Part shown: piece by piece, positions 1,703 to 32,050 of the stretch
Layout: the number at the start of each line of letters is the position of its first letter
Numbering within the stretch: the stretch's first letter is position 1
Assembly: GCA_033471095.1 (NCBI GenBank)
Contig: CP136752.1
Coordinates: forward strand, 489,083 to 535,849
Direction: 5' to 3'
Length of the DNA stretch: 46,767 bases
Origin: Nitrosopumilaceae archaeon AB1(1)
GTDB taxonomy: Archaea > Thermoproteota > Nitrososphaeria > Nitrososphaerales > Nitrosopumilaceae
Translations under genes and position numbers: made by a program
The notes under the pieces: model-generated
Seen by the model: the letters and a program-made list of their open reading frames with translations, nothing else
The model's database searches: none
Told to the model about the DNA's origin: nothing

Positions 1703-2529
1703 ACAAATCCTCAGATTATAAAATATATAATATGAAAATATGGAATGAGATTGCACCTAGATATCAAAAGAGATGGATTGGTGCAAAGACTGGGCCGTTT
1801 CAGAGTGGAGATGTACTAGTTGATATGATGAACTTTTCTGCTAACGATAAAGTGTTGGATGTAGCATGTGGTACAGGAGTTATAACTGCAAGAATTGTGA
1901 AAAAAGTCAGGAATGGAATGGTTGTTGGTGGAGACACTTCTATTACCGCATTAAAATTGGCAAAAAGAAAGATACCTAATGCTCACTTTGTAAACATGGA
2001 TGCAGAGAATTTTAGATTCTCTGAATCTTTTGATGCTGTTACATGTCAGTTTGGATTATTTTTCTTTCCAAATGCACAAAAGGCACTGAGGAATATGAAG
2101 AGTTGTCTGAGAAAAGGAGGACGATTAGGTGTTACTGTTCATGGTGAGAAATATGGATCTCCATACTTTTCTAGTATTATGAAAGAGATTACACAATTCA
2201 TACCAGATTATATGAATAATGGTAGTCCGGATTTGGCTAGATTTGGTACCAAAAAGGCACTCAGAGAAGAGATGAAACGGGCAGGATTTGAGAGAATAAA
2301 GGTAAAAGATATCATTTATCAGTATAGCCCTGGAACATTTGATGATTATTGGAAAAATTATACAAAGTATATTGCAAAACCATTACGACAAAAGATGAAT
2401 AAATTGAGTAGAAATGAAAAGATAGAGTTGAAGAGTCGTGTAGAGAATAATACAAAACGTTTTACAAATAAAACTGGCAAGATCACATTTCCTTGGCAGA
2501 TTTTGATAGTATCCACAGAGATACATTAG
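1699..2529 (+). CDS. class I SAM-dependent methyltransferase
   Basis: A 276-residue Rossmann-fold methyltransferase. Motif I is VLDVACGTG at residues 52-60, followed by an acidic ribose-binding strand (VVGGDTS) and a motif II/III region around MDAENFRFSESFDAVTCQFGLFF. This resembles UbiE/MenG-type methyltransferases, but the substrate cannot be read from the sequence. It starts with ATG overlapping the coaBC stop (4 nt), so it is co-transcribed with panB-coaBC; whether it acts in cofactor metabolism is inference only. Confidence 0.8.
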   Translation: MNKSSDYKIYNMKIWNEIAPRYQKRWIGAKTGPFQSGDVLVDMMNFSANDKVLDVACGTGVITARIVKKVRNGMVVGGDTSITALKLAKRKIPNAHFVNMDAENFRFSESFDAVTCQFGLFFFPNAQKALRNMKSCLRKGGRLGVTVHGEKYGSPYFSSIMKEITQFIPDYMNNGSPDLARFGTKKALREEMKRAGFERIKVKDIIYQYSPGTFDDYWKNYTKYIAKPLRQKMNKLSRNEKIELKSRVENNTKRFTNKTGKITFPWQILIVSTEIH

Positions 2530-2561
2530 TCAATAGAAAGCTAACAAGTAAATTAATATAA

Positions 2562-13779: not shown

Positions 13780-13976
13780 AAATAACATGAATTGGAAATA
13801 TGACCAATTTTTGTTCATAGATTTAAGTAGAAAATTTATTGTGCCTGTCCACAGATAACTTAATAGCACTGATTAGTCTAATCTTGAATATACCTACATA
13901 ATGAGCAAGTCCATATAACTTGACAATACCTATTTTAACAGCATTAATAAAATATTAGATATTAACTACAAATATG

Positions 13977-14399
13977 CCTAAAAAGAAAATAGTAGCCCCC
14001 TATCAGGCGGTCTAGACAGCCAGTTAGCAGTAAAAATGATGCAAAAGTAGGGATTTGATGTGTCTGCCGTAGCAATCAAGACACCATTCTGTGACTTTGA
14101 TTGTGGGAGAGGTTGTGGATTCGAAATTAGAGAGCGCTCAGAACTAGGTGTTGATCTAAAAACAGTATACCTGGGAGATGAATATATCAAAATGCTAAAA
14201 AATCCAAAACATAGAAGAGGTGCAGGTTATAATCCTTGTATTGATTGTCGTTCCATGATGTTTGATGTAACAAAGAAACACATGGAAGAGATTGGTGCAG
14301 AGTTTATCATATCCGGAGAAGTACTAGGTCAAAGACCCATGAGCCAACACGGTCAAGCGCTTGGAGTAATAGAGAAAGATTCAGATCTAAAGGGCAAAG
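13977..14399 (+). pseudogene. broken copy 1 of the PP-loop tRNA-thiolation-like ATPase gene
   Basis: Nearly identical at DNA level to the start of the intact gene at 31064. The copy begins at an ATG near 13976, loses one base in the PP-loop region (GTAGCCCC versus GTAGCCCTCC), has CAG to TAG at about 14048 and lacks one codon after the RERSE segment. It then stops matching at about 14399, where an IS110-like transposase remnant begins. The open stretch from 14060 covers the Cys-rich part (CDFDCGRGCGFE, NPCIDCRSMMFD). The 5' flank matches the flank of copy 2 at 25640, not that of the intact gene, so copies 1 and 2 share a duplication history. Confidence 0.85.
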
Positions 14400-15019: not shown

Positions 15020-16489
15020 TCAATGCCTACCCTTTCTGCTATCTTTTTGATCTCTGTTCATTATATCTGCCACGTTCTTGGTTTTATCATATTCTTTTAA
15101 CAGATCTGATATGTTATTTTCCCATGCCTTTAGATCAGGTGAATCTGTTATTTCAAAGACAGATCCTCCCTCTTTTTCTGAAACTTTCCCATCACTTACT
15201 GCCTCCATTATAATACCTTGTATTTTCTCAATGTTCTTTCTGTAAGTATTTGATGTTTGACGTAGTCTATTTGCTGCATCTGCGTCTATACTTTTTTTAT
15301 AAATTATGGCATTCCTGGCAAGCTTGTCGATCTCTAATAGTTCTGCAAACGATCTACTATAATGGTTATCATCCATCGGCATATATTTGGGCGTGTCATC
15401 AACACAGGCAGTATGTTTGAATGCGTCAGAGTCTTCTATAACTTCTGCCTTTCTAGTAGAATAATCAAATAGCACAGAATGGAACTGTCTCTGTGGTTTT
15501 TCTTGAATGTATGATATAATTACTATATCTCCATGCATGTTCTTACCACTTCTGCGTCCCATCGGAATCTTCATCATCTCTTCTATTCCAGTCTTTTTCA
15601 CATACTGGTTTATCTCGTTAAGTGGTGATACTAGTGGCATTAGGTCTGATTCTCGTTCAAGCTTTTCTCTCACGTCTGTTACAGAATCTTCTGACTTTGA
15701 TGCCCCTGCAAATATCCGTATCCTATTGGCATCAGTTCCGTTGAACTGCTTTGGTGTGGTCTCTGCACCAAGAATTGAGGTATCTAGTCCAATTACATCA
15801 TTTATGGTCTCTATTTTACCCAAAAGCTTACCCATGAGTTTTAGTATTTTATCAAGGCTTTTCTCTGGATAACATTCTCTAGAGCGTACCGTATCAAAGG
15901 TGCTAGTTAGTCTATCTATTCTCCCAATTCTCTGTACTATTCGCATAGGATTCCATGGCAAATCATAATTTATTACATAATTACAGTCTTGCAGGTTCTG
16001 ACCCTCTGCTAACACCTCCGTTGATATAAGAATGTCTGCCGTCTGCTCTGGCATTGTCTCATCATCATCCATATTTGCTTTTGGAGAGAACTCTTGTATC
16101 ATCTTCTGTCGAGTCTCTTTTTTGACATCTCCTGTGATTAACAATATCTTTTTGTTTCCAAATTTTTCCATCATCTTTTTCTTGATATGATTAGCAGTCA
16201 CTGTATACTCTGTGAATATGAGTACCTTTCTGCTCTCATTTTTCAATGCGCCATCAATCATTATCTTTTCTGCAACAGCATCGAATTTTTTATCAAATGG
16301 TAAAATTTCTTCAATTCCTTTCTGATATTCTCTTAGAATACGTAGATCCTCTGTTAAATCCTCTTTCATCTGTACTGTATCATAGTTTACTGCAGGTTCT
16401 GTTGGAAGCTTTTCTATTGCGCTTACAAAGAACTCATCCCTATCATTTCCATCATCTTCTCCATCTGTCTGCCTCTTCCATTTTGCCAT
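15020..16489 (-). CDS. SNF2-type helicase, C-terminal half (frameshifted)
   Basis: The second RecA-like lobe of a SNF2/DEAD superfamily ATPase. It contains KVLIFTEYTVTANHIKKKM, DILISTEVLAEGQNLQDC, INYDLPWNPMRIVQRIGRID (motifs V and VI) and a long C-terminal extension. Its first residues overlap the end of the N-terminal half (16452-17540) by 38 nt in another frame, around a GA-rich stretch near 16455-16480, which fits a one-base indel in one original gene of about 850 residues. ATG at 16489 could in principle restart translation. The gene ends a PLD-helicase-methylase cluster. Confidence 0.8.
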   Translation of the reverse strand: MAKWKRQTDGEDDGNDRDEFFVSAIEKLPTEPAVNYDTVQMKEDLTEDLRILREYQKGIEEILPFDKKFDAVAEKIMIDGALKNESRKVLIFTEYTVTANHIKKKMMEKFGNKKILLITGDVKKETRQKMIQEFSPKANMDDDETMPEQTADILISTEVLAEGQNLQDCNYVINYDLPWNPMRIVQRIGRIDRLTSTFDTVRSRECYPEKSLDKILKLMGKLLGKIETINDVIGLDTSILGAETTPKQFNGTDANRIRIFAGASKSEDSVTDVREKLERESDLMPLVSPLNEINQYVKKTGIEEMMKIPMGRRSGKNMHGDIVIISYIQEKPQRQFHSVLFDYSTRKAEVIEDSDAFKHTACVDDTPKYMPMDDNHYSRSFAELLEIDKLARNAIIYKKSIDADAANRLRQTSNTYRKNIEKIQGIIMEAVSDGKVSEKEGGSVFEITDSPDLKAWENNISDLLKEYDKTKNVADIMNRDQKDSRKGRH

Positions 16490-17540
16490 TATCTTGTTGA
16501 GTCTCCTTTACAGATACTATGGAGTTATTTTTCAGAGTCTTCTCAAAGTGCTCATACAACCGTATTTTATTATCTATGCTAATCTTAGCTGCATACGTAC
16601 TACTTTCAAATCTCTTTAAAATAATTATAGTCTGAAGTGTAGCTAAAACCTTGTGCTTTTCCCTTTCCTCCTTTGAGAGAGTCTTGTTGTAAGTTTCTAC
16701 ACCGTATGGTACCATATGAAGTTTTTCTACTGTATCTAATAATTCTGAATACACATTTGTCCCAGTAGTTTCGCTCAAGTCATAGTATATAGGGGAGTAT
16801 TCTCTTTTTGGAAATTTTACTAGTTTGCCATTGAGCTTCTCATTAGGATATACGTCCTTGATAAATGATTCTGTGCGCCTTATCATTATGGCGTCAAGAA
16901 GTTGTTGGATTTTTTGTAGACCATTTCCTATACCTTCGTTTGCAGCCTTTCTCATATGTTGATACAGATTTGGTATTCCTATATTAGAAAAATAGGTATC
17001 ATCACCATTTGTAATTATTGATACCTGATAGTAGAGATCCATTATACTGTTGTTGATTGGTGTGGCAGATAGCAATATTGCGTCCTTTTTCTTTCCTGAC
17101 ATGAGTTTCATCAAGTTTATACGCCTGTTTGCGTTCTTTGAACGAAAGTTTTGTGATTCGTCTATTACCACCGTATCTATGTTTCTATACTTGTGCAACT
17201 CATCCTCAAATGTATCCCTCCCTAAACTTTCCATTGTTATTGTCTTTATGGTAATTCCTGCCGATTCCAATTTTACTTTCCACACTGACTCTAGCACTTG
17301 AGAAGGGGCAATCAAAAGTACCTTTTTGTTGTCCTGATGTCTCTTTTGTCTGATTATCTCTATTCCTATGTGGGTTTTGCCCAGTCCTGTCGAGTCTGCA
17401 ATTATCACACCTCTGTAATCATTAATTATGTGCATTGTGGTTATCACGGCATCTTTTTGGAATTTTGCAAGGTTTGCAAGCTTTGAGGAATCTGTCTCTG
17501 CCATTGCCATAAGCGATGGTTTGTATTTTTCAAATAACAT
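16452..17540 (-). CDS. SNF2-type helicase, N-terminal half
   Basis: The first RecA lobe of a SNF2-like ATPase. It has a Q-motif-like FQKDAV, Walker A ADSTGLGKTHIG, motif Ia VLLIAPSQVLESVW, Walker B VVIDESQNFRS and motif III LLSATPINNS. The ATG at 17540 follows the stop of the PLD gene after a single base, so translation is coupled. The frame ends shortly after 16480, where the C-terminal half continues in another frame. In DISARM and related systems SNF2 helicases act with methylases and PLD proteins against phage DNA. Here at least two members of the cluster are broken. Confidence 0.85.
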   Translation of the reverse strand: MLFEKYKPSLMAMAETDSSKLANLAKFQKDAVITTMHIINDYRGVIIADSTGLGKTHIGIEIIRQKRHQDNKKVLLIAPSQVLESVWKVKLESAGITIKTITMESLGRDTFEDELHKYRNIDTVVIDESQNFRSKNANRRINLMKLMSGKKKDAILLSATPINNSIMDLYYQVSIITNGDDTYFSNIGIPNLYQHMRKAANEGIGNGLQKIQQLLDAIMIRRTESFIKDVYPNEKLNGKLVKFPKREYSPIYYDLSETTGTNVYSELLDTVEKLHMVPYGVETYNKTLSKEEREKHKVLATLQTIIILKRFESSTYAAKISIDNKIRLYEHFEKTLKNNSIVSVKETQQDNGKMEEADRWRR

Positions 17541-17541
17541 T

Positions 17542-18204
17542 TTAATATATATCTGGTATGGATTTGGTGGTATCCCAAACTTCGATTGTTCTAACAGATT
17601 CGATTATCTCTTGTTTTGTATCTTTTGCATCAAACCACATTCTATTGAACCATTTGTATATTTTATCTAGTGACGCTGGTGTGTATATTGCAGCATTGAG
17701 CTCTCTATTGCCCTCAAATCCAGATTTTGTAAAATTACTAGATCCCACTAGCGCCATATCTTTTCCCAAAATGTAGCACTTTGCGTGATTGAATCTACGA
17801 TCGTTATGTCTTACTTGGATATTATTGCGTTTAAGCATCTTTACTAGACTGGAAGCGGAATTCATATTGTCCTGTGTAAATATAGCATCGTCTAAATTCT
17901 CTCCTAACGATTTTGTACTAAATGATTTCGTCTCGTCTGTTTTTATCTTTTTGCGATAGTCCTCAAATGTATTCAAAACTGGAGCACTGATCGCATCTTC
18001 ACCTAAAAGTAAACGTATGACAAAATCACTCTTCTCTGAGGCAGGTTCTAATGTATTGCGAATTAAGTCATAGCCACTTAATTCAAAGTAACCAGATGAT
18101 ATGTCAAGTGATTTGATCTTTGGAATGTTGAGATTGAGCGCATCTATCATATTTGTGCTGACGTTATCTACTATATCTGGACGATCTTTTCTATCATAGC
18201 TCAT
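17542..18204 (-). CDS. phospholipase D-like domain protein
   Basis: A 220-residue protein with a PLD-superfamily motif: H140-A-K142 followed by LVGSSNFTKSGFEGNRELN (G154, S155, N157). Such domains in defence clusters are usually nucleases. Only one HxK motif is present, so a dimer would be needed for a complete active site. The ATG overlaps the TAA of the methylase fragment (TAATG) and the stop is one base before the helicase ATG. This is the only apparently intact gene in its three-gene cluster. In many genomes the PLD domain is fused to the SNF2 helicase, which supports a joint function. Confidence 0.8.
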   Translation of the reverse strand: MSYDRKDRPDIVDNVSTNMIDALNLNIPKIKSLDISSGYFELSGYDLIRNTLEPASEKSDFVIRLLLGEDAISAPVLNTFEDYRKKIKTDETKSFSTKSLGENLDDAIFTQDNMNSASSLVKMLKRNNIQVRHNDRRFNHAKCYILGKDMALVGSSNFTKSGFEGNRELNAAIYTPASLDKIYKWFNRMWFDAKDTKQEIIESVRTIEVWDTTKSIPDIY

Positions 18205-18725
18205 TATATTTTCACTCCAATATTGTATTCTTTTACATATTCATTATAATGTTTTAGAACAATTTTACGCACCTCGCCAAAAAAGTTACGCATTATGGAC
18301 GTACTGTCACTCCAGTTAATCTCTTTAGCATCACTCATTGTAAAATCTTCACCAAGCTTGAACGAATTTATAACAATTTTATATTCATTTATATCCAATC
18401 CATACGCAAGAGCCACCAATGCATCAAGTTTGGCGGCGGTCTCGATTCTTTCTCTAGGAGAGAGTTGTTTGTTTTCAATTCTCAATGATTCTGCAAAACC
18501 TTCAAATTCAGAACTACCAATTGATAGTTTGGCAGAGAGATGAATTATTTCATCATCAAACTTTGTAACATTTGGAATTGGAAGTAATGGAAATACTGTA
18601 GATACATTTAATTGTGTTTTAGAACGCGCTATAAAATCAAAAATCATAGAATTAAAAATACCACATAAATATGCTATTTTTCTATTATACTGTGCATCGA
18701 TCTTTATCAGATCGTCTTTTTTCAA
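18204..18725 (-). CDS. Eco57I-like methylase/nuclease, fragment D (C-terminal specificity region)
   Basis: The last 173 residues of a large adenine-specific methylase, with the typical ending YLCGIFNSMIFDFIARSKTQLNVSTVFPLLPIP and a helical tail ending at the PLD gene. In this frame the reading extends upstream without a stop (IIPPHKFYTYSLRVL) to about 18770, where it joins fragment C after a one-base indel. ATG 18725 is thus not the natural start. Its TAA overlaps the PLD start codon. Confidence 0.75.
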   Translation of the reverse strand: MKKDDLIKIDAQYNRKIAYLCGIFNSMIFDFIARSKTQLNVSTVFPLLPIPNVTKFDDEIIHLSAKLSIGSSEFEGFAESLRIENKQLSPRERIETAAKLDALVALAYGLDINEYKIVINSFKLGEDFTMSDAKEINWSDSTSIMRNFFGEVRKIVLKHYNEYVKEYNIGVKI

Positions 18726-18756
18726 TATTAAAACACGTAATGAGTATGTATAAAAT

Positions 18757-19572
18757 TTATGTGGAGGAATTATAGTCTGTAATGACAGTTCTCATATTTG
18801 TGGGTGATGATATATTTCTAAATGCCAATCTGAATGAATCGTGGATTTCTTTGCATTGATCATCATAAACTCGTTTTTTTTGTTCATGTTGCAAGCCAGC
18901 AATTTTGTCTGCTGTAAATTCAGGCTTTGTATAGTTTGAAATAAATTGGTGTATATGTTTGCCTTCCAAAACAGGCCAACCTTTTCCATCATCTTGTAAC
19001 AAATTCGAATCATTAGTTTTATCAAATCCACGTGAAAGTGATATAGACCAATTACCATCTAGTCTAGAACCAACACATGGATTATCGGCAAATTTTGTTA
19101 ATAAATTCGTATATGCCGATCCAGTTTCATGAATCATAAGCTCATTTGGAGATATGAGTTCCATCTCAGTTTTAGAAACAATTCTAAATTTGTGTTTTTC
19201 TGATTCATCTCCTTGTAAAGTGGAAAGATTATGTAGATAAAATCCAGCAGGAAATATATCTGAACCAGTTACATTGCGAATAGTTAGCAGTACAAATCTA
19301 TAGCTGACTATGTATGGAAAATATTTTTTTTTATTCTCAAACACATAAAGTGATATAATATCTTTATCAAGAATTTTTTTACGAATATCGTATCCTCCAA
19401 GATTCGAAAGAAGTTGAGACGGAATCACCATTGATATTGATCCACCGGCAGTCATAAAATCCAAGGAACGTTCAAGAACAAGTTGCCACAGAATCTCTAT
19501 CCCCAACTCCTTGTAGTTTATATATTTTATAAAATAATGTTTTATCCACAAACATGTTTTTATGATTCTCAT
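18757..19572 (-). CDS. Eco57I-like methylase/nuclease, fragment C (post-catalytic region)
   Basis: From about 19490 the frame continues the methylase: LWQLVLERSLDFMTAGGSIS, MVIPSQLLSNLGGYDIRKKI, then target-recognition-like sequence (GWPVLEGKHIHQFISNYTKP). The first 25 residues from 19572 are an out-of-frame reading of fragment B and carry no meaning. It ends at a stop created by an indel at about 18770, just before fragment D. Confidence 0.75.
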   Translation of the reverse strand: MRIIKTCLWIKHYFIKYINYKELGIEILWQLVLERSLDFMTAGGSISMVIPSQLLSNLGGYDIRKKILDKDIISLYVFENKKKYFPYIVSYRFVLLTIRNVTGSDIFPAGFYLHNLSTLQGDESEKHKFRIVSKTEMELISPNELMIHETGSAYTNLLTKFADNPCVGSRLDGNWSISLSRGFDKTNDSNLLQDDGKGWPVLEGKHIHQFISNYTKPEFTADKIAGLQHEQKKRVYDDQCKEIHDSFRLAFRNISSPTNMRTVITDYNSST

Positions 19573-21541
19573 AAATTTTTTTAATAGATAAATTCTTGAG
19601 TAGATTTTTAATAATTTTATTTTTATCTTGTTTTGTTTTCAATGATTTAAAAGATGGATAGTGTGAAGTGAAAAATTCATCATCAGAATGTTTTACTTTA
19701 TCCCAAGGAGGATTTCCAACAATCAAATCAAATCCTCGCCTTGTATCAGTAAATGCATCCATCATCTCAAGCTCCCAATGAAAAAATTTGTAAATTTTAG
19801 ATAATTTTTGAACTTTTTTTCTTATTTTTGTTATGGAGTTATCTGTAGATAATTCATCATCAGTATTATTAGTAAATTGTTCTACGAATCTTTTGACATC
19901 ACGATTTTTTTTTGGTATTATATCCTTGTCAATTTTTGATGCTGTAAGCACATCCAGCATCATTTTGTGTGGTAACATCTCTTCTTCATATCTATTATGT
20001 TCATCTTCACTGAATTGAACCTGTTTCATTGTAACATCTGAACTACAACTTACTTTGGTTATTATCTCTCCAGTCATTTCAGTATTATCAATCCAGTTAT
20101 CTATGGTATGATTTTTCTCTGCCAAATCCTTCCGCCACATTCCTATTGTAGAATCTCCAATCTTTAGATGGTGGTTCATGTATGTTAGAGGAACTCCTAT
20201 TGCAAACGAGTCAAGCCATAAAGACAATCTTGCAAGTTCTACAGCAAGAGGGTTAATATCAACACCAAATATACATCGCTTCATTATTTTCCGTTTTAAT
20301 AAAACATCATCTTTAAGAAAGTTATAATCAAAAGTTATGCCCTTCTTCTTTTGTGTCTGAATTATTGTTTCTCTATCATGTTCGATGTCTTCGGCAAGCG
20401 GATGATCTCTGTATCTGTTTAAAATACCTGTTACCCATGTCGTTATTTGGTTTAATGCTTCCACCAAGAAATGACCGCTGCCCATTGATGGGTCAAGTAC
20501 TTGTAAATCAAGTAGTCTGTCTATGCAGACTTTACGATTTTTATCATTAGAATTTTTTTTGTAATTCTCTAAATCTTTTTTGATTTTATTTTCTCGTTCA
20601 TAAAGTATGGGATCAAGTCCTTGTTTTACTAGAAATTGTACAAATTCTTCTGGAGTATAATAGCTAGCAGAATTTTTTCTTGATGCTATTCCTCCCTTTG
20701 ATGCAAGATACAAATCATTTACCTTGTAAGAGTATGTAGATTCTTGCTTGGTTACAACCTCTCTTACCCCCTTTGAATCCTCTAACAACATTATGTCCTT
20801 GTCTGCCTGTTTTACACTAAACTCCATCAATGCCTCATAGATATTTCCAAGGTGTCTAACACCAAGACTAGCATAATCCATTGCATCACCATCTTTTTCA
20901 ACTAGTCCACGCATAGCAGGTACTATGAATTTGTTTTTGACACTTTGATTATCAATAGATGGATTGATCTTGAACAGTTCACCGTTGTACTCTGGAAGAT
21001 TATGTTCTACACTACCTTTGCGTATTCCAGTGAATAGCTTCAAAAGTGCACTCCAGCAGGAATCATCATTTGGCTCTTTTTCCATAGTATCAAATCTAGT
21101 TCGCAGATTCTGGAGTGATATGGGATGATATTTTGTATCGTTTACTGGTAACAGATCACGAGATTCAGCATATAACAGGAACCATATTCTATACATGATC
21201 TTCAATGATGTCTGCTTTGCATGTTCTAGATCTGCATCAGTATACTTCTTTTTTATATCATGATCTAACACACCTTTTATCAAATCAAGAAATATTCCAT
21301 CTGTTTGTAGTATTTTAGAGGACAGATCATCTTCAAGTTCCTGCGCATATGTCTTACCTTTCTCAAATATTACGTCAATGTCGATTTTTTTATCGTGTTT
21401 CACATACGAGTCTATACCAAATATTGCTACTAGATATTGTAATATGATATCGCGTTTAAGACCCAAATTTATCTCAAAATAATTTGTGGTGGGGGCCGAC
21501 ATTTTGTTTGTATAGAGTCGCCATTGCGTACCGTTTGTCAA
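19472..21541 (-). CDS. Eco57I-like methylase/nuclease, fragment B (N6-adenine methylase core)
   Basis: The central 689-residue piece holds the catalytic methylase domain: SYYTPEEFVQFLV (motif X), VLDPSMGSGHFLVEAL (motif I, about residue 350, SAM binding), FGVDINPLAVELARLSLWL (motif II) and the catalytic NPPWDK near 19705. The first codons (LTNGTQWRLYTNKMSAPTTN) are the end of the N-terminal nuclease-type domain, whose beginning is fragment A. Frame changes at about 21550 and 19490 separate it from fragments A and C. The full gene would run from about 22374 to 18204 and needs at least four frame corrections. Confidence 0.85.
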   Translation of the reverse strand: MTNGTQWRLYTNKMSAPTTNYFEINLGLKRDIILQYLVAIFGIDSYVKHDKKIDIDVIFEKGKTYAQELEDDLSSKILQTDGIFLDLIKGVLDHDIKKKYTDADLEHAKQTSLKIMYRIWFLLYAESRDLLPVNDTKYHPISLQNLRTRFDTMEKEPNDDSCWSALLKLFTGIRKGSVEHNLPEYNGELFKINPSIDNQSVKNKFIVPAMRGLVEKDGDAMDYASLGVRHLGNIYEALMEFSVKQADKDIMLLEDSKGVREVVTKQESTYSYKVNDLYLASKGGIASRKNSASYYTPEEFVQFLVKQGLDPILYERENKIKKDLENYKKNSNDKNRKVCIDRLLDLQVLDPSMGSGHFLVEALNQITTWVTGILNRYRDHPLAEDIEHDRETIIQTQKKKGITFDYNFLKDDVLLKRKIMKRCIFGVDINPLAVELARLSLWLDSFAIGVPLTYMNHHLKIGDSTIGMWRKDLAEKNHTIDNWIDNTEMTGEIITKVSCSSDVTMKQVQFSEDEHNRYEEEMLPHKMMLDVLTASKIDKDIIPKKNRDVKRFVEQFTNNTDDELSTDNSITKIRKKVQKLSKIYKFFHWELEMMDAFTDTRRGFDLIVGNPPWDKVKHSDDEFFTSHYPSFKSLKTKQDKNKIIKNLLKNLSIKKIYENHKNMFVDKTLFYKIYKLQGVGDRDSVATCS

Positions 21542-22232
21542 TATTACCCAAGGTGTGTTGTTTCAGCTCAGACACAGCCACATAACTTGGCGCTATATCA
21601 TCTTTGGTTTTTATCCCAAGATCTACATCTTTTTTAACTACAATGGTAACAAAATCGTTAATATGATAAACTCCACTAGCTCGTTTTTCTAGATTTTTCC
21701 AACCTAACAGATCTAAAATATCTTCCACAGAATTAATTCTCTTTGCAATCTCTGTTGCTTGTTCTTTTACATCTCGCCCAAGTTCATCAAATAATCGGTT
21801 TTTGATATAATGTGTCGAAAATACTCCTCTATTGTCAAAATCAGATTCGTGTGTAGGAATCATCTTTATGGCATTGCTCACACATCTTACCATCTCCATC
21901 TTACTAGTCGCCTTTGCAAATTTACATGAGTTTAGAATGGATGTCATCTGTTCGTATGTATTGGCGCTTTCAAGTTTTACTAAAAAACTATGTTCCAACG
22001 CCTTTAGAAACAGATTGTATGGTTTACCCTGTTTTGTTCTAAACAGCACTATGCATGAAGAGAGTTTAGATATGTATGAACGTGCTTCTACAATGTTTTT
22101 GGGACCATCTTCAATCAATATTATTTGAGTTGATGGAAAATCACTTGATTTTTTAAAATTAAACGCTGTCCAGTTTTTTGGAAACCCTTCCATCTTGATT
22201 TTTTCAATGTCTACACCCAATTGATCAAGCAT
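21474..22232 (-). CDS. Eco57I-like methylase/nuclease, fragment A (N-terminal domain)
   Basis: A 252-residue N-terminal piece ending in VAVSELKQHT before the frame switches to WVILTNGTQWRLY of fragment B, a hallmark join in type IIG and BREX-type enzymes. The fragment also continues upstream in the same frame (GGYLLSEQIQK) to about 22258. There another indel separates it from a probable true start at ATG 22374 (MLSIVKSISSLNRHMNDSVR). The domain should correspond to the restriction or accessory module. I could not identify a clean PD-(D/E)xK triad. Confidence 0.65.
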   Translation of the reverse strand: MLDQLGVDIEKIKMEGFPKNWTAFNFKKSSDFPSTQIILIEDGPKNIVEARSYISKLSSCIVLFRTKQGKPYNLFLKALEHSFLVKLESANTYEQMTSILNSCKFAKATSKMEMVRCVSNAIKMIPTHESDFDNRGVFSTHYIKNRLFDELGRDVKEQATEIAKRINSVEDILDLLGWKNLEKRASGVYHINDFVTIVVKKDVDLGIKTKDDIAPSYVAVSELKQHTLGNIDKRYAMATLYKQNVGPHHKLF

Positions 22233-22501: not shown

Positions 22502-22954
22502 TTGGGTAATGCATCTATAAAAAAATCTGATTTAATTCTTCTTTTACTTAATGGAGATAACAAATTTCCAATTGAGGGCATAACTAGATTTGAAAAATTA
22601 GTGTTTTTAACACAAATGGAAATTTTAAATAAATGGGACAATGTAAAAATCAAATTTAATTTTGAACCTGATAGATTTGGACCGCTCGCTACGGAAATTT
22701 ATGATGAGATTGATTTTCTAAAATCAGTTAAAATGATTAAGGAGACAGTGGGGAAATATGAGATTACGGATAAAGGAAAAAGATTTCTTGAAAAGAAAAC
22801 GTATGAACGAGTTCATGAAGATCTGATAAAACATATATCCGATCTTAAAGAAAAACATGGTAGAGAAAAATTAGATGATATTCTCAGATATGTGTATTCA
22901 AATTATCCTGATTTTACAATAAAATCACAAATACGTGATAGGGTGTTAAGATAG
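22502..22954 (+). CDS. winged-helix/Panacea-like protein, first gene of a five-gene operon
   Basis: A 150-residue protein. The N-terminal 90 residues look like a winged helix (LILLLLNGDNKFPIEGITRFEKLVFLT, then FNFEPDRFGPLATEIYDEID and YEITDKGKRFLE). The C-terminal ending LDDILRYVYSNYPDFTIKS is typical of SocA/Panacea-like antitoxin-related proteins. It may act as the regulator or antitoxin of the operon. It starts with TTG at 22502. The next gene starts 2 nt after its stop, so co-translation is likely. No frame disruption is seen, in contrast to the neighbouring cluster. Confidence 0.6.
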   Translation: MGNASIKKSDLILLLLNGDNKFPIEGITRFEKLVFLTQMEILNKWDNVKIKFNFEPDRFGPLATEIYDEIDFLKSVKMIKETVGKYEITDKGKRFLEKKTYERVHEDLIKHISDLKEKHGREKLDDILRYVYSNYPDFTIKSQIRDRVLR

Positions 22955-22956
22955 CA

Positions 22957-23511
22957 ATGCCATTAACTGAAACATACATCTTTGGAGTATTTGCTAGTGG
23001 ACTCATCATTTTTGGGTGTACTTTATTTAGAATGAAAGATGATAAACGAGATAAACTTGATGAAGACATTACAAAAACATATCAACACTTGAGAAATTAT
23101 ACGTTAAATCCTATTTTACAAGGAATTCTTAGTAGTACTAAAGGAAAATTTAAAACAGAAAAATTTTTTAAAACCCCAGAAGTCATAGAAAAATTAGAAC
23201 AATACCGAGTGCGTTTATTCAAATTTAATGAAGTTAGCAATAAGAAACAAATCATTATTCTATTATTGGAATTATCAACAAATACGTCTATAATACTTGG
23301 GATCATAACTTTTTTGTTTACTGCAACAAACGAACTTTTCATAAATTCTAAATATAATACATTTGGAATTGATATATTGTACATAGTATGTTTAAATGCA
23401 ATTGTTCTAGTGATTGGGTTAATTTTTATTACTAGTTTTATTCAACAATTTTTGTCTTTTAACTCTTCATTTAAATCTGAAATAAGGGAGCTAAATGGTG
23501 GTTTGGTATGA
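22957..23511 (+). CDS. three-helix membrane protein, second gene of the operon
   Basis: A 184-residue integral membrane protein of unknown family. Hydrophobic helices lie near residues 5-24 (YIFGVFASGLIIFGCTLF), 102-130 (IILGIITFLFTATNELF) and 140-165 (YIVCLNAIVLVIGLIFITSF). A charged cytoplasmic segment of about 75 residues sits between the first two. It overlaps the following nuclease gene by 4 nt. Membrane partners next to nucleases are common in abortive-infection modules, but nothing in this sequence proves pore formation. Confidence 0.65.
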   Translation: MPLTETYIFGVFASGLIIFGCTLFRMKDDKRDKLDEDITKTYQHLRNYTLNPILQGILSSTKGKFKTEKFFKTPEVIEKLEQYRVRLFKFNEVSNKKQIIILLLELSTNTSIILGIITFLFTATNELFINSKYNTFGIDILYIVCLNAIVLVIGLIFITSFIQQFLSFNSSFKSEIRELNGGLV

Positions 23512-23921
23512 GTATTAAAGAATTAGAATTGTACAAAAAGATTAAACATACAGGACCTTTTGCAAATGAGACTCTATATTATGAAATTCCAATAGGGGAT
23601 TGGTCATCTAGTAGAAAAAGAATTGATATAGTTGCTTTAAAAAATCAAAAATTAGTTTCAATTGAAGTAAAAATCAGTAATTGGAAAAAAGTTTTGCAGC
23701 AAGCTTATACAAATCTCTATGTTGCAGATTATTCTTATGTTGCTTTATGGCATAAAACAATGCCGAATGTAGATATATCGCTCTTTGAAAATCTTGGGAT
23801 TGGAATTTTAGAAATAAATGGTTCCTGTGAAAAAAAATTATCTGCAAAAAAATCAAAATTAGTTATTTCTAAACGTAGACGTTATGCAAAAAAACAATGT
23901 ACATTACAGGAGATGTCTTGA
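23508..23921 (+). CDS. PD-(D/E)xK nuclease-like protein
   Basis: A 137-residue compact protein with the order expected for PD-(D/E)xK nucleases. Conserved acidic residues lie near residues 21-26 (NETLYYEIPIG), followed by R-I-D40, then S-I-E53-V-K55, and a following helix with Q64/Q65 (VLQQAYTNLYVADYSYVALW). This matches the resolvase/restriction-like core. It overlaps the upstream membrane gene (ATGA) and abuts the next gene with no gap, so it is part of a coupled operon. The C-terminus is strongly basic (KRRRYAKK), suggesting nucleic-acid contact. Confidence 0.7.
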   Translation: MSIKELELYKKIKHTGPFANETLYYEIPIGDWSSSRKRIDIVALKNQKLVSIEVKISNWKKVLQQAYTNLYVADYSYVALWHKTMPNVDISLFENLGIGILEINGSCEKKLSAKKSKLVISKRRRYAKKQCTLQEMS

Positions 23922-25136
23922 TTGCCTGAATTAATGATACGAATTAACATTAGCCGAGAAATGGCATGGTTAGAAAATAGTAATTTGAGAAACTTTAACA
24001 TTGTTGTATCAAGTCATATTTTAGAAGGTCTGAAAAAAAGGATTACCAATATGCTTACAAAACTAAAAAAACCATACATTATTGATCCTCATACATACGT
24101 TTTTGGTGCTGATGTTGAAGATATTAGAGGAAAACGTTGGTTTCCAAAACTCATGGAAAACTATGGTTTAGATTTGATAGTTGAACCTGATTCTCTTAAT
24201 CTATCTCCAAATTTACTTATTGACAATAATCAACCAACAGATAATTTGAAAGAATTAGTTGAAAATGTTGTAACTTATCAAAGAACTACAGTTCAAGATA
24301 TTTATGATGAAATTTCTGAATTTGAAGAATTCGAAACTGAAAATACTGAATCTTTTGTTCTTAGACCTAAATGGATTATTCCACCATATTTTTTCTTAGA
24401 CGCAGGTGCTGAAGATTGGCTTACCGTAAATACTCACTCTATCAAATTGGCAATAGAAAATAGAGATGATAATGAAAAAATTTTTGCAGTGATAATGATT
24501 GATAGGGATCTATTGTCATATGAAGAAGATATTGATGAAATTATACAAAAATACAAAATCTCAGGCGTTGATGGATATATGATATGGTCTGCATACATGG
24601 ATGAAAATTTTGCAAAGAAAGAAGAGTTAGAACGTTTTCAAAAATTTGTTAGTAAACTTGCTAATAACAAAAAACCAATTTATAATATGTATGGGGGATT
24701 GTTTTCGTTTTTACTCAAAGAAAAAGGTATGACAGGATCCTCACATTCAATTTGTTATGGAGAACACAAAAGTCCATTTACTACTGGTGGTAGGGCTGCA
24801 ACCATTCGATTTTATCAAACATTTCTTCATTCAAAAGTACCATTTGCAAGAATTGCTGAAATTGAACGTGCGCTAGAATTAAAAAAATGTGATTGTAAAT
24901 ATTGTGACATAATCCATGATGTTGATAATAAAGGTGAACAAATGGAATTGGCAGGAAAGCATTTTCTTGTAAATCGAATTAAAGAATTAGAAGAAATTGA
25001 TTCTGATGGGATAGGAAAATTTCTTGCAAAATTAACACATGCAGCGAAACATGCTAATAAAAGGGATACAACTGGTGCATATTCTAACCTTTATGATCGA
25101 TTTACAACTTGGGAAGAGATTATCAACAAAATTTAA
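23922..25136 (+). CDS. large protein with TGT-like C-x-C-x2-C-H zinc site, function unknown
   Basis: A 404-residue intact gene, starting with TTG directly after the nuclease stop. The alternation of strands and helices (PYIIDPHTYVFG, KWIIPPYFFLDAG, IFAVIMIDRDLL, VDGYMIWSAYMDE, PIYNMYGGLFSFLL) suggests a TIM barrel. Near the C-terminus is C323-x-C325-x2-C328 followed by H347. This pattern resembles the zinc site of tRNA-guanine transglycosylases and the related DNA-modifying DpdA proteins. The barrel and zinc assignments are inference, since the catalytic Asp pair of TGT cannot be placed by eye. The gene is coupled to a zinc-finger gene (TAATG). Confidence 0.6.
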   Translation: MPELMIRINISREMAWLENSNLRNFNIVVSSHILEGLKKRITNMLTKLKKPYIIDPHTYVFGADVEDIRGKRWFPKLMENYGLDLIVEPDSLNLSPNLLIDNNQPTDNLKELVENVVTYQRTTVQDIYDEISEFEEFETENTESFVLRPKWIIPPYFFLDAGAEDWLTVNTHSIKLAIENRDDNEKIFAVIMIDRDLLSYEEDIDEIIQKYKISGVDGYMIWSAYMDENFAKKEELERFQKFVSKLANNKKPIYNMYGGLFSFLLKEKGMTGSSHSICYGEHKSPFTTGGRAATIRFYQTFLHSKVPFARIAEIERALELKKCDCKYCDIIHDVDNKGEQMELAGKHFLVNRIKELEEIDSDGIGKFLAKLTHAAKHANKRDTTGAYSNLYDRFTTWEEIINKI

Positions 25137-25495
25137 TGATTAAATTGAAATCAAAATTTAAATCTAAATGTTTTGGATGTAGTGAGTTTATTTATCCAGG
25201 AGATGAAATAATTCAAGCTGGAAGTGGAAGATGGATTCATGAACATTGCCCAGTAGTTGAAGATGGTGATTATCAAAATGATCCTCTCATAAGAAAAAAA
25301 TCTGAACAAATAAAACGTAGTTTACTTCATTCAAAAGTTGATAATGATAAGCCTAAAAAATGTCTTCATTGTGGAAATAAATCATTTTTGAAAAAAAGAC
25401 TTCATACTTTAACTTTAGGTGATAGAGAAACATTTTCTATTAAATTATTCATTTGTGACAAATGCTTCTTTGTCATGCAATTTATTGAAGAGTAA
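25136..25495 (+). CDS. two-zinc-site small protein, last gene of the operon
   Basis: A 119-residue protein starting at ATG 25136, which overlaps the previous TAA. The first site is C12-x2-C15 with H35-x-H37-C38 (KCFGCSEFIYPGDEI, RWIHEHC), a PARP-finger-like treble clef layout. The second is CLHCG with CDKC near the end (LFICDKCFFVMQFI). Such proteins usually bind nucleic acid or act as adaptors. A longer in-frame start at 25109 exists but would overlap the upstream gene by 28 nt and adds no motif. Confidence 0.65.
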   Translation: MIKLKSKFKSKCFGCSEFIYPGDEIIQAGSGRWIHEHCPVVEDGDYQNDPLIRKKSEQIKRSLLHSKVDNDKPKKCLHCGNKSFLKKRLHTLTLGDRETFSIKLFICDKCFFVMQFIEE

Positions 25496-25669
25496 ATAAT
25501 TATTTGAAATGAGGAGGGATCCTTCCTGTACCAAATTTGTTGAGATTTTCTACTATGGTGTTCTTGCTATGAATATGTATTTTGAGATATCTAAACATCA
25601 TAATACCTACACTGTTCAAAATTAGATATTTTTATTAGTATTAATAAAATATTAGATATTGATTACAAT

Positions 25670-26225
25670 ATGGTAAAAAACAAGAAAATAGTAGCCCTCC
25701 TATCAGGCGGTCTAGACAGCCAATTGGCAGTCAAAATGATGCAAAAGCAGGGATTTGACGTGTCTGCCGTAGCAATCAAGACACCATTTTGTGACTTTGA
25801 TTGTGGAAGAGGTTGCGGATTCGAAATTAGAGAGCGCTCAGAAGAATTGGGTGTTGATCTCAAAACAGTATACCTAGGAGATGAATATATCAAAATGCTA
25901 AAAAATCCAAAACATAGAAGAGGTGCAGGATATAATCCTTGTATTGATTGTCGTTCCATGATGTTTGATGCAGCAAAGAAACACATGGAAGAGATTGGTG
26001 CAGAGTTTATCATATCCGGAGAAGTACTAGGTCAAAGACCCATGAGCCAACACGGTCCAGCACTTGGAGTAATAGAGAAAGATTCAAATCTAAAGGGCAA
26101 AATAGTCAGACCACTATCTGCATGACTATTACCACCAACAATTCCAGAAAATGACGGGCTAATCAGACGAGAAGACATGGGAACAATCAAAGGACGCTCA
26201 AGAAAGATACAACTTCAAATGGCCA
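25670..26225 (+). pseudogene. broken copy 2 of the PP-loop ATPase gene
   Basis: The copy is open from ATG 25670 to a nonsense change at 26124, where GGA of the intact gene became TGA (LSA-stop). Beyond it the match continues to about 26225 (ATGGCCAAA), then switches without a gap to a segment of the HerA-like ATPase. It retains SGGLDS, the Cys-rich region and NPCIDC, so a 151-residue truncated protein could be made. Very high identity to copy 1 and to the intact gene indicates recent duplication. Confidence 0.85.
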
Positions 26226-26228
26226 AAG

Positions 26229-26473
26229 CACGTGCAGCTTTGATACCTGCAGAGGATAGAACTCTGGTCGTTTTAGCATTAGACGAGTTTCAAAAGATAC
26301 ATGATTTAACACTACTATCTACACTACTTGCTCAGGCTCGATCATACAATTTAGGGCTAATCCTTTCACATCAAAATACATCTCAGATATCTGCAAAATT
26401 ATTAGAGAGTATCACTGGAAATACAGCAACACAAATCTTTGGTAGAGTATCTGGAATTGATGCTGAACGAATA
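26229..26473 (+). pseudogene. 245-bp duplicated piece of the HerA-like ATPase gene
   Basis: Bases 26229-26473 match 8502-8746 with no gaps and only scattered substitutions. They carry the Walker B strand (VVLALDEFQ) and the ILSHQNTSQI region. The segment is fused in frame to the PP-loop copy upstream (QMAKARAALIPAEDRTL) and ends in unrelated sequence with a stop at 26507-26509. It lacks Walker A and so cannot be an active ATPase. Confidence 0.9.
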
Positions 26474-26584: not shown

Positions 26585-26863
26585 ATGAGTCGGAGTATAT
26601 CAGATGACGTTAAAAGGCGATTATACATGAAATGTGGGAGACAGTGTGCAATGCCTGATTGTGGACTCGATCTTTTACAAAAAATGACCAAAGATGTTGA
26701 AATTGTTATTTCAGAAAATGCACATATCATAAGTTTTAGCAAAAATGGTCCTCGTGCAGAAGAGGATATCATCAGACTCACAAAAAAATTCAGAAGAGAA
26801 TTTAATTGTAGTTTGTGCAAATTGTCACATAAAAATAGACAAAAATCCGAAATTCTACACTAA
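26585..26863 (+). CDS. ABC-3C system HNH effector, N-terminal part (frameshifted)
   Basis: Reads DDVKRRLYMKCGRQCAMPDC (zinc-binding start of the HNH domain), then ENAHIISFSKNGPRAEED with the catalytic His. This is the signature arrangement of HNH effectors in ABC three-component systems. The frame is lost after a run of seven A at 26782-26788. The continuation (SEENLIVVCANCHIKID) lies one base later in the frame that ends at 27332. With six A the gene would read through as one protein of about 248 residues. Confidence 0.8.
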   Translation: MSRSISDDVKRRLYMKCGRQCAMPDCGLDLLQKMTKDVEIVISENAHIISFSKNGPRAEEDIIRLTKKFRREFNCSLCKLSHKNRQKSEILH

Positions 26864-27332
26864 AGATAAATTACAAAAATTCAAAAAAGACCACGAAGCC
26901 AAAATATACAATAAATTGAGAGACAATGTACAAAATGTAGGATTTACAGAACTAGAAGACATATTAAATTTTCTAGCATCAGATGTGATTACAATTCAAG
27001 ATGATTATACATTGATAAAACCTAAAGAAAAAATCAAAAAAAATAATTTGTCAACACAGACTTCACAATTAATTTTACGTGGAATGATAGGTTCAAATCA
27101 AGTTAATAATTATTTGCAAAAACACCCCAATCCAAAACAAGGAGAACGCATAAGAGAACGTTTTGTACAAGAGTACATGAGACTACGTAATGAAGAAGAA
27201 ATAAAAGACGATGATTTATTTTATTCCTTGTATGATTTTGCTTCATTACATTCTAACGAGAAAGCAAAAACACAAGCAGGGTTATCCGTGTTAGTATATT
27301 TCTTTGAAAAATGTGAGGTGTTTGAAAAATAA
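26745..27332 (+). CDS. ABC-3C system HNH effector, C-terminal part
   Basis: From about 26790 the frame carries the second half of the HNH motif (SEENLIVVCANCHIKIDKNP, KDKLQKFKKDHEAKI). A helical region follows, with a target-sensing or docking C-terminus (GMIGSNQVNNYLQKHP, NEKAKTQAGLSVLVYFFEKC). The first 15 residues from 26745 are an out-of-frame reading of the N-terminal part. It is followed at 27335 by the middle component with a 2-nt spacing. Confidence 0.8.
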   Translation: MVLVQKRISSDSQKNSEENLIVVCANCHIKIDKNPKFYTKDKLQKFKKDHEAKIYNKLRDNVQNVGFTELEDILNFLASDVITIQDDYTLIKPKEKIKKNNLSTQTSQLILRGMIGSNQVNNYLQKHPNPKQGERIRERFVQEYMRLRNEEEIKDDDLFYSLYDFASLHSNEKAKTQAGLSVLVYFFEKCEVFEK

Positions 27333-27334
27333 TA

Positions 27335-27556
27335 TTGCCAAGTAAACATGTAAAATTATCTAATTCAATGTTAAATGTGGGGGCTGTAATATTAGAACAA
27401 ATTGATGAAGCACAAACAATTACAATGCTTTGGAATGATTCAAAAATTAAATCTGAAATAATATACTTTGAGAAATTTACTTTAGGGTTAGATTTTTTGT
27501 TTATGTTAGGTCTAATAGATTATGAAAAAGGAATTATTAGGAAAATACAGATTTGA
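27335..27556 (+). CDS. ABC-3C system middle component
   Basis: A 73-residue protein (LSNSMLNVGAVILEQIDEAQ, FTLGLDFLFMLGLIDYEKG) between the HNH and ATPase genes. In size, position and pattern it matches the small winged-helix-like middle components of ABC-3C systems. It starts with TTG at 27335, and its stop overlaps the TTG start of the ATPase gene (TTGA), which implies translational coupling. It is the only undamaged gene of the three. Confidence 0.75.
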   Translation: MPSKHVKLSNSMLNVGAVILEQIDEAQTITMLWNDSKIKSEIIYFEKFTLGLDFLFMLGLIDYEKGIIRKIQI

Positions 27557-28749
27557 TTCATTCGATTGATTCTGATCATAAGAAATTTAAAAAAATTAAT
27601 TTTTCTAAAGGATTTAATGTAGTTTTAGCAGAAAGAACTAGGGAATCATCACAGAAAGATTCGAGGAATGGGCTTGGGAAAAGTACCATGATAAACATTA
27701 TTCATTTTTGTTTAGGAGGAGATCCTAAAGATGCACTAAATGATTCAAAGTTGGAAGATTCTACATTCACAATTGAACTTGATTTAGATGAGAAAAGATA
27801 CAAGGTCAGTAGAAGTCCAGGAAATAAGGGTCAGATTTTCATAGATGGGGATTATTCCAGTTGGTCAATAAAACCTAAAACAGATACCGAAACGGGTAAA
27901 AAATATCTCAACAAGAATTCTTGGCGAAATATTTTAGGTAAACTTATGTTTGATTTACCAATAGGTTTACAATCATTTAATCCATCATTTGGAAGCATGA
28001 TTTCATATTTTATAAGAAAACATGAAGGATTTCTTGATGCATTCAAACAGTCATCAGCTCAACTAACATGGGATATTCAGACTAATAATGCATATTTGTT
28101 AGATTTAGGATGGATATTTGCAACAGAATTACAAATTTTGAGAAAAAAGAAAAATGATCTAGATGCATTTAAGCGAGAAATAAACACAGGAAACTTTAAA
28201 GGATTTATGGGAAATACTGGTGAATTAGAAGCAGAAAGAGTCAGATTACAAATACATGCAGATAAAGAAAAAGAAAAATTAAATAAATTTCAAGTAAATG
28301 ATCAATATGAACAAATTGAGAAGGAAGCTAACGACATCACAGACACAATTCACAATAAAACCAATCAAAGTGTAATGGATAAATTATTGTTAAATAGATA
28401 CAACGTTAGTTTAGAACAAGAAAAAGTAGCAGATATTCAACAAATATCTGAAGTTTATCAAGAAGCTGGAATGTATTTTTCAGAAAGAATAACAAAAACA
28501 TTAGAGGAAGTTAATGAATTTCATAATAAGATTATAGAAAATAGAAAAGAATTTTTGAATTCAGAAATTACACAATTAAAAAGTGAAATTATTTCCAGAA
28601 CACAAATAATAGAACAATTAGATAAAAAAAGATTAAATTTAATGCAAATACTTAACACACAAGGTGCATTAAAGGAATACACAGAAGTTCAAAAGAATCA
28701 TAGTAATTCTCAATCTGAGTTAAATGATATCAAAGCTGAAATTAGATAA
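27553..28749 (+). CDS. ABC-3C system SMC-like ATPase, N-terminal part (frameshifted)
   Basis: An ABC/SMC-type ATPase head: GFNVVLAERTRES, then Walker A SRNGLGKST (residues 37-45) and IIHFCLGG, followed by long coiled coils (EKEKLNKFQVNDQYEQIEKE, ITQLKSEIISRTQIIEQLDK). It lacks the Walker B/signature half, which sits in another frame at 28724-29284. The two frames differ by one base and overlap by 26 nt near 28724-28749. It belongs to the DUF2326-type family described in ABC-3C conflict systems. Confidence 0.85.
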   Translation: MIHSIDSDHKKFKKINFSKGFNVVLAERTRESSQKDSRNGLGKSTMINIIHFCLGGDPKDALNDSKLEDSTFTIELDLDEKRYKVSRSPGNKGQIFIDGDYSSWSIKPKTDTETGKKYLNKNSWRNILGKLMFDLPIGLQSFNPSFGSMISYFIRKHEGFLDAFKQSSAQLTWDIQTNNAYLLDLGWIFATELQILRKKKNDLDAFKREINTGNFKGFMGNTGELEAERVRLQIHADKEKEKLNKFQVNDQYEQIEKEANDITDTIHNKTNQSVMDKLLLNRYNVSLEQEKVADIQQISEVYQEAGMYFSERITKTLEEVNEFHNKIIENRKEFLNSEITQLKSEIISRTQIIEQLDKKRLNLMQILNTQGALKEYTEVQKNHSNSQSELNDIKAEIR

Positions 28750-29284
28750 TTTAAAAAATATTGCAGATAGAGATAATCAGATAAAAATGGATAAGCAGAA
28801 ACTCTATAAAAATGCTTTAATCGACATGAAAGAACGAACTGATCAGAAAAATATGGCAATCAGGGCATTTGGTGAATTCTCTAGTTCTCTCTATAGTGAA
28901 TTTGGAACTTTTCTAATAAATTTAAATGAAGACGGGTTTAAGTTTGATATCAACATTCAACGTTCATCAAGTCAGGGTATTGGAAATATGAAGGTATTTT
29001 GTTATGATCTTACACTTACAAAAATTTGGTCTATGAGAAAACAATCTCCTAAATTTTTGATTCACGATAGTATGATTTTTGATGGAGTGGATGAACGACA
29101 AAGAGCAGGAGCCCTACAACTTGCAAAAAAAACATCAGAAATGTATAGTTTTCAGTATATTTGTACATTAAATTCAGATATGATTCCTCATAGAGATTTG
29201 AAAGATCTGGATTTAGAAAGACACATTGTAAGAAAATTAACAGATTCAACTGAAGATGGTGGAATCTTAGGCATTAGACTATAA
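28724..29284 (+). CDS. ABC-3C system SMC-like ATPase, C-terminal DUF2326-type part
   Basis: The continuation of the coiled coil (LKLDNLKNIADRDNQIKMDK) followed by the C-terminal ATPase lobe: GIGNMKVFCYDLTLTKIW (signature-like region), SPKFLIHDSMIFDGVDERQ (Walker B region, D-loop) and the strand QYICTLNSDMIP. The sequence ends naturally (DGGILGIRL). The ATG at 28724 lies within the upstream frame and is unlikely to be the ancestral start. Confidence 0.85.
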   Translation: MISKLKLDNLKNIADRDNQIKMDKQKLYKNALIDMKERTDQKNMAIRAFGEFSSSLYSEFGTFLINLNEDGFKFDINIQRSSSQGIGNMKVFCYDLTLTKIWSMRKQSPKFLIHDSMIFDGVDERQRAGALQLAKKTSEMYSFQYICTLNSDMIPHRDLKDLDLERHIVRKLTDSTEDGGILGIRL

Positions 29285-31063: not shown

Positions 31064-32050
31064 ATGTCTAAAAAGAAAATAGTAGCCCTCCTATCCGGCG
31101 GTCTTGACAGCCAGCTAGCAGTCAGAATGATGCAAAAGCAGGGATTTGACGTGTCTGCCGTAGCAATCAAGACACCATTTTGTGACTTTGATTGCGGAAG
31201 AGGTTGTGGATTTGAAATTAGAGAAAGGTCTGAAGAGCTAGGAGTAGATCTCAAAACAGTATACTTGGGAGATGAATATATCAAAATGCTAAAAAATCCA
31301 AAACATAGAAGAGGTGCAGGATATAATCCTTGTATTGATTGTCGTTCCATGATGTTTGATGCAGCAAAGAAACACATGGAAGAGATTGGTGCAGAGTTTA
31401 TTATATCTGGAGAAGTATTAGGTCAAAGACCCATGAGCCAACACGGTCAAGCGCTTGGAGTGATAGAGAAAGATTCAGATCTAAAGGGCAAAATAGTCAG
31501 ACCACTATCTGCAGGACTATTACCACCAACAATTCCAGAAAATGACGGACTAATCAGACGAGAAGACATGGGAACAATCAGAGGACGCTCAAGAAAGATA
31601 CAACTTCAAATGGCCAAAGAGTTTAACATCAAAAACCCACCAAATGCAGGAGGCGGATGTCTCCTAACAAATCCATCATTTGGAAGAAAGACTAAAGATC
31701 TATTCGAGCACACAGATATGCCAACAATTAATGAGATAGACCTACTAAAGGTTGGAAGACATTTCAGATTTGACAAAATCACGAAATTAATAGTAGGCAG
31801 AGACCACCAGGAAAATCAGACCATATCGGCCCTTGCACTACCTGAGGATATCATACTAGAGACTGAAACATACATGGGTCCGACCTCACTGCTCAGAGGC
31901 AATAAGGAACACCTAGAGAAAGCAGCGAGAATCACCCTACGATACTCTGATGCACCAAAATCAGGAATTCATACGGTACGTACAGGCACGACTCAGGCAC
32001 AAGTCAGTCGTGCAGAACCGGACGATATGGAGTCATTCCGGATTCTATAG
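31064..32050 (+). CDS. PP-loop ATPase, ThiI/MnmA-like, probable tRNA thiolation enzyme (intact copy)
   Basis: A 328-residue adenine nucleotide alpha-hydrolase. The PP-loop is SGGLDS (residues 11-16). Cysteines C40, C44, C48, C90 and C93 may bind metal or an Fe-S cluster and carry sulfur. The C-terminal half (NPPNAGGGCLLTNPSFGRK, then FRFDKITKLIVGRDHQEN) resembles the NFACT-R-like RNA-binding domain seen in ThiI-like proteins. The likely role is sulfur insertion into tRNA, with the exact modification unknown. This is the only complete copy of three in the window (others at 13977 and 25670). The 5' flank differs from those of the two broken copies. Confidence 0.8.
   Translation: MSKKKIVALLSGGLDSQLAVRMMQKQGFDVSAVAIKTPFCDFDCGRGCGFEIRERSEELGVDLKTVYLGDEYIKMLKNPKHRRGAGYNPCIDCRSMMFDAAKKHMEEIGAEFIISGEVLGQRPMSQHGQALGVIEKDSDLKGKIVRPLSAGLLPPTIPENDGLIRREDMGTIRGRSRKIQLQMAKEFNIKNPPNAGGGCLLTNPSFGRKTKDLFEHTDMPTINEIDLLKVGRHFRFDKITKLIVGRDHQENQTISALALPEDIILETETYMGPTSLLRGNKEHLEKAARITLRYSDAPKSGIHTVRTGTTQAQVSRAEPDDMESFRIL

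Follow-up and report, generated by a model that had tools for sequence, protein, structure and literature searches.

Panacea antitoxins counteract toxins of several kinds, membrane toxins and RNases among them (PMC8832971). Among systems linked to TGT-like proteins, Dpd has been described as restriction-modification (RM)-like, and the BREX-related capture (BRC) systems include a TGT together with a GNAT protein (PMC12839542). Here we describe a compact gene module that would bring together three separately studied things: Panacea-type regulation, TGT/DpdA chemistry, and the swapping of abortive-infection effectors. The module is known from archaea, bacteria and viral contigs, and is small enough for direct test in haloarchaea or E. 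coli. Literature searches found no description of this gene set, in agreement with an earlier note, made from the letters of the archaeal locus, that could match it to no system by name. We put at about an even chance the reading of the locus as a mobile module of genetic conflict that swaps effectors, is controlled by a Panacea-like protein and carries a divergent TGT-like barrel.

An intact operon within a mobile island

The window analysed is a stretch of 46,767 nucleotides from a Nitrosopumilaceae genome that consists of a single contig of 1.46 Mb. ORF calling identified five intact ORFs at 22502-25495, all on the + strand and separated, in order, by +2, -4, 0 and -1 nt, which bears out the five intact genes and the spacing of -4 to +2 nt given in the earlier note. 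These genes, and two partial gene copies that delimit the larger unit containing them, are as follows.

13933-14398, + strand: left partial ThiI-like copy, 92.8% identical to 25630-26101; left edge of a unit of ~11.2 kb
22502-22954, + strand: gene 1, Panacea/SocA-like winged-helix protein, 150 aa, TTG start; core
22957-23511, + strand: gene 2, membrane protein, 184 aa; exchangeable slot
23508-23921, + strand: gene 3, small PD-(D/E)xK nuclease-like protein, 137 aa; core
23922-25136, + strand: gene 4, TGT/DpdA-like zinc TIM-barrel protein, 404 aa, TTG start; core
25136-25495, + strand: gene 5, zinc-ribbon-like protein, 119 aa, ATG start, with Cys pairs in its sequence
25630-26228, + strand: right partial ThiI-like copy, with the ThiI domain, 135 bp past gene 5

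The TTG starts of gene 1 and of the barrel gene give the best fit to homologues, and the four-gene module that recurs elsewhere (see below) occupies ~2.6 kb.

The operon sits in a mobile island with broken genes on both sides, so that both the defence-island setting and the broken neighbours claimed for it beforehand were borne out. Upstream, at 15020-22232 on the - strand, lies a DISARM-like set with several frame breaks, comprising a DrmD-like SNF2 helicase in two frames, a PLD/DrmC-like protein, and a DrmM (DrmMI-like)/type IIG methylase spread over several, overlapping frames. The downstream side holds the truncated ThiI-like gene, a HerA/TraG-like fragment of 110 aa, and an ABC-3C (PDC-M68) system at 26585-29284 (HNH-CTD10, MC6 and ABC ATPase), also with frame breaks, whose ATPase halves match positions 1-401 and 399-581 of the profile. 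Some of the splits in neighbouring genes could in part be sequencing indels; the ThiI-like and HerA/TraG-like fragments are real partial duplications. The latter derives from the HerA/TraG-like ATPase gene at 7676-9595, with 26226-26473 and 8499-8746 being 97% identical. Elsewhere in the window, a gene for a TPR-repeat protein with a TPR-S sensor domain (2562-4877) contains long, highly similar tandem DNA repeats at 3323-4694.

The window contains three copies of the 5' portion of the ThiI-like gene (ThiI + NFACT-R_2), at 93-94% identity. The right partial copy, over 25679-26228, is 94.4% identical to 31070-31619, within the only complete copy (31064-32050). The first two copies enclose the ~11.2-kb unit, and the module stands at its right end. 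This unit looks like the product of serial integration at one gene, and the three copies likely mark a repeated integration site bounding two units of defence genes.

Recurrence of the module and exchange of its fourth gene

Sequence searches yielded 12 homologous loci from six deep clades. These are the Nitrosopumilaceae, a second archaeal order in the same phylum, plasmids of Haloarcula, a plasmid of Arthrobacter, and two lineages of viral contigs. The set consists of the window, G245/L006, G528/L016, G264/L017, L014 (Arthrobacter pSI-1), L015, L020 and L021 (Haloarcula), and the IMG/VR contigs L052, L054, L055 and L056, the last two being close relatives. A core triad of Panacea/SocA-like winged helix, PD-(D/E)xK nuclease and barrel of ~400-470 aa is present at all 12. 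The fourth slot is occupied by a three-TM membrane protein at six loci, by SIR2 at three (PF13289; 2.8e-24 in L020, 8.6e-6 in L052) and by PIN at one (PIN_3, 9.7e-13 in L004), with no evident occupant at two. The order winged helix, membrane protein, nuclease, barrel, with genes touching or overlapping, is found in thaumarchaea, Arthrobacter and viral contigs; in L052 and L054 the barrel and SIR2 genes converge on those for the nuclease and winged helix, the other loci being co-directional.

Distance matrices of the core proteins correlate across the 12 loci (r 0.93-0.96), and do so with one locus per clade (r 0.67-0.85, p 0.007-0.03). Among the three Nitrosopumilaceae copies, dN/dS is 0.06-0.40 for the first four genes, and since the genes on either side of it are not the same in the three genomes, the module moves. 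Its copies are located on plasmids, viral or prophage contigs, or islands. Several adjoin SIR2 or N6-methylase genes, and in Haloarcula genes of both types lie directly beside the module (L021, 1-3971; L020, 6375-7862).

The earlier note had proposed that all five genes form one system, and a co-inheritance check set beforehand was run on other genomes. Four of the five genes recur together, the membrane protein among them, but in a slot open to exchange, and the zinc ribbon is confined to this genome: no homologue of it stands at the operon end at the other 11 loci. Gene 5 is translationally coupled here, yet lies outside the conserved unit. Nor is the system specifically thaumarchaeal, since it also occurs on haloarchaeal and actinobacterial plasmids and on viral contigs. 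The patchwork of broken genes in the island and the unconserved zinc ribbon might be taken to indicate chance adjacency of unrelated genes during decay; the same core at 12 loci, in the same order across domains of life and under purifying selection, makes that explanation very improbable, and for the core triad the recurrent order and the dN/dS values of 0.06-0.40 refute it.

The prevalence of the module is low: 3/250 in Nitrosopumilaceae, 1/44 in the order of G264, and 2/400 in a draw from the class. The families of the nuclease (16/250) and winged helix (43/250) are commoner than that of the barrel, and their wider spread means that both also occur without it. Bacterial prevalence is underestimated, because genome contigs were scanned with exact peptide patterns taken from the window protein. 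A tblastn search for homologues of the module in phages retrieved none. Two genes near individual copies may be recorded here: a reverse-transcriptase-like gene, recognised by eye, upstream of the module on viral contig L055 (1677-2714), and an archaeal TGT-like gene (L006, 103-1077) ~3.5 kb upstream of the copy in Nitrosopumilus LS_AOA, perhaps by coincidence.

The barrel protein

The gene 4 product matches no family in Pfam, NCBIfam or PADLOC, its matches in PHROG are weak, and neither the window protein nor its homologues match the TGT model PF01702 at E <= 1; the genome encodes its own archaeal TGT elsewhere, at 730915-731883. The TGT-like zinc fold suggested in advance of these searches nevertheless draws support from a zinc site, a predicted TIM barrel and structural matches to DpdA and TGT. 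The site has the form CxCxxC...H (C323, C325, C328 and H347), its cysteines being present at 11/12 loci and His347 at 12/12; the Arthrobacter barrel retains the histidine without the cysteines. When a profile of the 12 barrel sequences was compared by hhalign with 30 archaeal TGTs, the local alignment fell exactly at CxCxxC...H (P 1.1e-4), and a control comparison of phage DpdA with TGT was weaker (P 1.8e-3). The corresponding comparison of the barrel with phage DpdA was not significant. An alignment to TGT made with only eight barrel sequences covered a spurious region and was discarded. Profile searches of PDB sequences gave nothing meaningful, the one weak match, to gp162 of 8y6v, involving C-terminal helices only; this is not evidence against the relationship, because phage DpdA likewise finds no relative there.

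An AF2 model built from six sequences (pLDDT 64, pTM 0.71) predicts a TIM-barrel fold, with low confidence in region 273-334, which contains Glu281 and the zinc cysteines; a model from two sequences (pLDDT 36) was set aside. Foldseek searches of the PDB with the six-sequence model returned TIM barrels, DpdA 7ui4 standing at rank 8 (E 6e-3). In the viral library the best match was a phage queuine tRNA-ribosyltransferase (E 4.4e-4, probability 1.0), and several other TGT-like proteins were also listed. TM-scores to DpdA are ~0.33, and those to PEP mutase and xylanases in the PDB are slightly higher. At these modest scores, the model is consistent with a TIM-barrel fold related to that of TGT/DpdA.

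Residues invariant in the barrel are D55, P56, F61, P149, P155, G258, F261, L265, G272, E281, Y298, H347, L371 and W397, with R/K296 also conserved in 12/12 copies; Asp55 and Glu281 are the only acidic residues fully invariant across the 12 loci. We take D55, by position and not from a computed alignment, to match the first Asp of the DSG motif of TGT/DpdA. The nucleophilic Asp that those enzymes carry on the last barrel strand has no invariant counterpart in the expected motif, in a part where the model is weak. Because this nucleophile is not seen as an invariant residue, and because the Arthrobacter copy has no zinc cysteines, the barrel may not be a transglycosylase. The same missing nucleophile, and the loss of the cysteines in Arthrobacter while His347 stays, would suit a barrel that does no catalysis but senses modified bases or the tRNA or DNA of an invader, leaving the nuclease or the accessory protein as sole effector. 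We think this decidedly improbable: D55, E281, R/K296 and Y298 are retained in every copy, as one would expect if they belonged to an active or binding site. If active, the barrel would bring to genetic conflict an enzyme of the TGT superfamily whose active site is unusual.

Partner proteins

Gene 1 scores 19.8 bits against PF13274, below the Pfam cut-off of 25.7, as does every family member scanned (homologues up to 25.4). Panacea/SocA is the recurrent best-known match of the family, and the N-terminal part of the window protein matches PADLOC PDC-M19A (7.5e-13). The regulator or antitoxin-like character first suggested for it is supported. Homologues are present at 12/12 loci with 27-67% identity; those of Haloarcula are annotated SocA or DUF4065, two being named SocA domain proteins by NCBI. 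The gene 2 product has one N-terminal TM segment, a soluble region and a C-terminal TM pair, and this 1+2 layout is common to all its homologues, which occupy the same place at 6/12 loci, among them that of Arthrobacter and those of two viral contigs.

A stand-alone pair, which also counts in favour of the conflict-module reading, occurs in the same genome (L094, C1:1035500-1041000) at 2103-3073 on the - strand, where a Panacea-like winged-helix gene (2624-3073) is followed after 2 nt by a gene for a 3-TM protein (2103-2621). The latter was rejected as a homologue of gene 2, hhalign detecting no homology between proteins alike in layout only. Such a pair, the Panacea-like first gene, and the location on plasmids and islands are what would be expected of a plain toxin-antitoxin (TA) system, with the Panacea-like protein as antitoxin and the nuclease, barrel or accessory protein as toxin, serving to maintain mobile elements and not defence. 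Three core genes plus a swapped fourth exceed the needs of a two-gene TA, however, and defence genes lie nearby; we judge this account unlikely.

The PD-(D/E)xK motif previously noted in gene 3 is upheld by its conservation, E26, D40, E53-x-K55 and Q65 being invariant at 12/12 loci, and the protein has weak similarity to Hjc, UPF0102 and DUF234. A paralogue in the same genome (L093, C1:431000-437000; 2589-3038) lies beside a nucleotidyltransferase and is flanked by preQ0 genes: QueC (778-1449), GTP cyclohydrolase I (1720-2295) and QueE-like (4067-4774). This bears on whether the module is a minimal, RM-like cousin of Dpd, in which the barrel would mark self DNA with a 7-deazaguanine and DNA without the mark would be cut by the PD-(D/E)xK protein. 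The nuclease paralogue inside the host preQ0 cluster, the pairing of a TGT/DpdA-like barrel with a nuclease, the host's own archaeal TGT and preQ0 genes, and the RM-like character ascribed to Dpd itself (PMC12839542) all speak for it. Its chances nonetheless seem small to us, given the lack of DpdB/DpdC-like partners, a nuclease of ~137 aa without a recognition domain, a barrel in which the canonical nucleophilic Asp is not apparent, and swapped SIR2, PIN and TM partners that better suit abortive infection.

Proposed function and comparison with known systems

Replacing one gene while the core stays constant is how prokaryotic conflict systems exchange effectors. The swapping of membrane, SIR2 and PIN proteins around the core triad therefore favours a Panacea-controlled defence or abortive-infection module, and with its constant core and interchangeable "weapon" genes the module probably acts against viruses or in self-shutdown, as a system not recognised before. 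The module architecture rests on sequence comparison, and from it we infer every later step. The Panacea-like protein would silence the toxic components and may also regulate its own operon; the barrel would bind or process guanine or 7-deazaguanine in nucleic acid, by base exchange or excision; the nuclease would cut sites made or recognised by the barrel, or next to them; and an invader upsetting this balance would cause the accessory protein, whether membrane permeabiliser, NADase or RNase, to stop the cell or the invader. More specifically, the module could be a new type of prokaryotic immune system built on a TGT-fold enzyme that has Glu where the Asp nucleophile would be usual. This enzyme would remove or exchange guanine, or a deazaguanine, in the nucleic acid of an invader, the dedicated PD-(D/E)xK nuclease would cut there, and the Panacea-like protein would release the exchangeable membrane, SIR2 or PIN effector; in that full form the proposal is a doubtful one.

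Several described systems share parts of this plan. Like Dpd, the module sits in a mobile locus associated with defence and joins a barrel resembling the TGT superfamily to partners of nuclease type, and DpdA 7ui4 and phage DpdAs are among the structural matches of its barrel. It differs in that neither the operon nor the other loci include DpdB, DpdC or preQ0 genes, in that the barrel lacks significant profile similarity to phage DpdA and an apparent nucleophilic Asp, and in having a Panacea-like regulator and swapped effectors. With archaeal and bacterial TGT (PF01702) the barrel shares its layout and the CxCxxC...H zinc site near the C-terminus, whereas the missing Pfam match, the diverged catalytic region and the operon with a nuclease set it apart. 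The recruitment of a TGT homologue into a conflict locus recalls the BRC systems (PMC12839542), although their PglZ, DUF6079, HerA and STAND components are not part of the module. The PADLOC candidate PDC-M19 is similar in that its protein A is matched by the N-terminal part of gene 1, but PDC-M19A has 294 aa and genes 2-5 match no other part of that candidate. In the Panacea (PanA-PanT) loci, as here, a Panacea/SocA-like protein is paired with toxin-like partners that are swapped, some of them membrane proteins or RNases; unlike PanA, the Panacea-like protein of the module has two further constant partners, the nuclease and the barrel.
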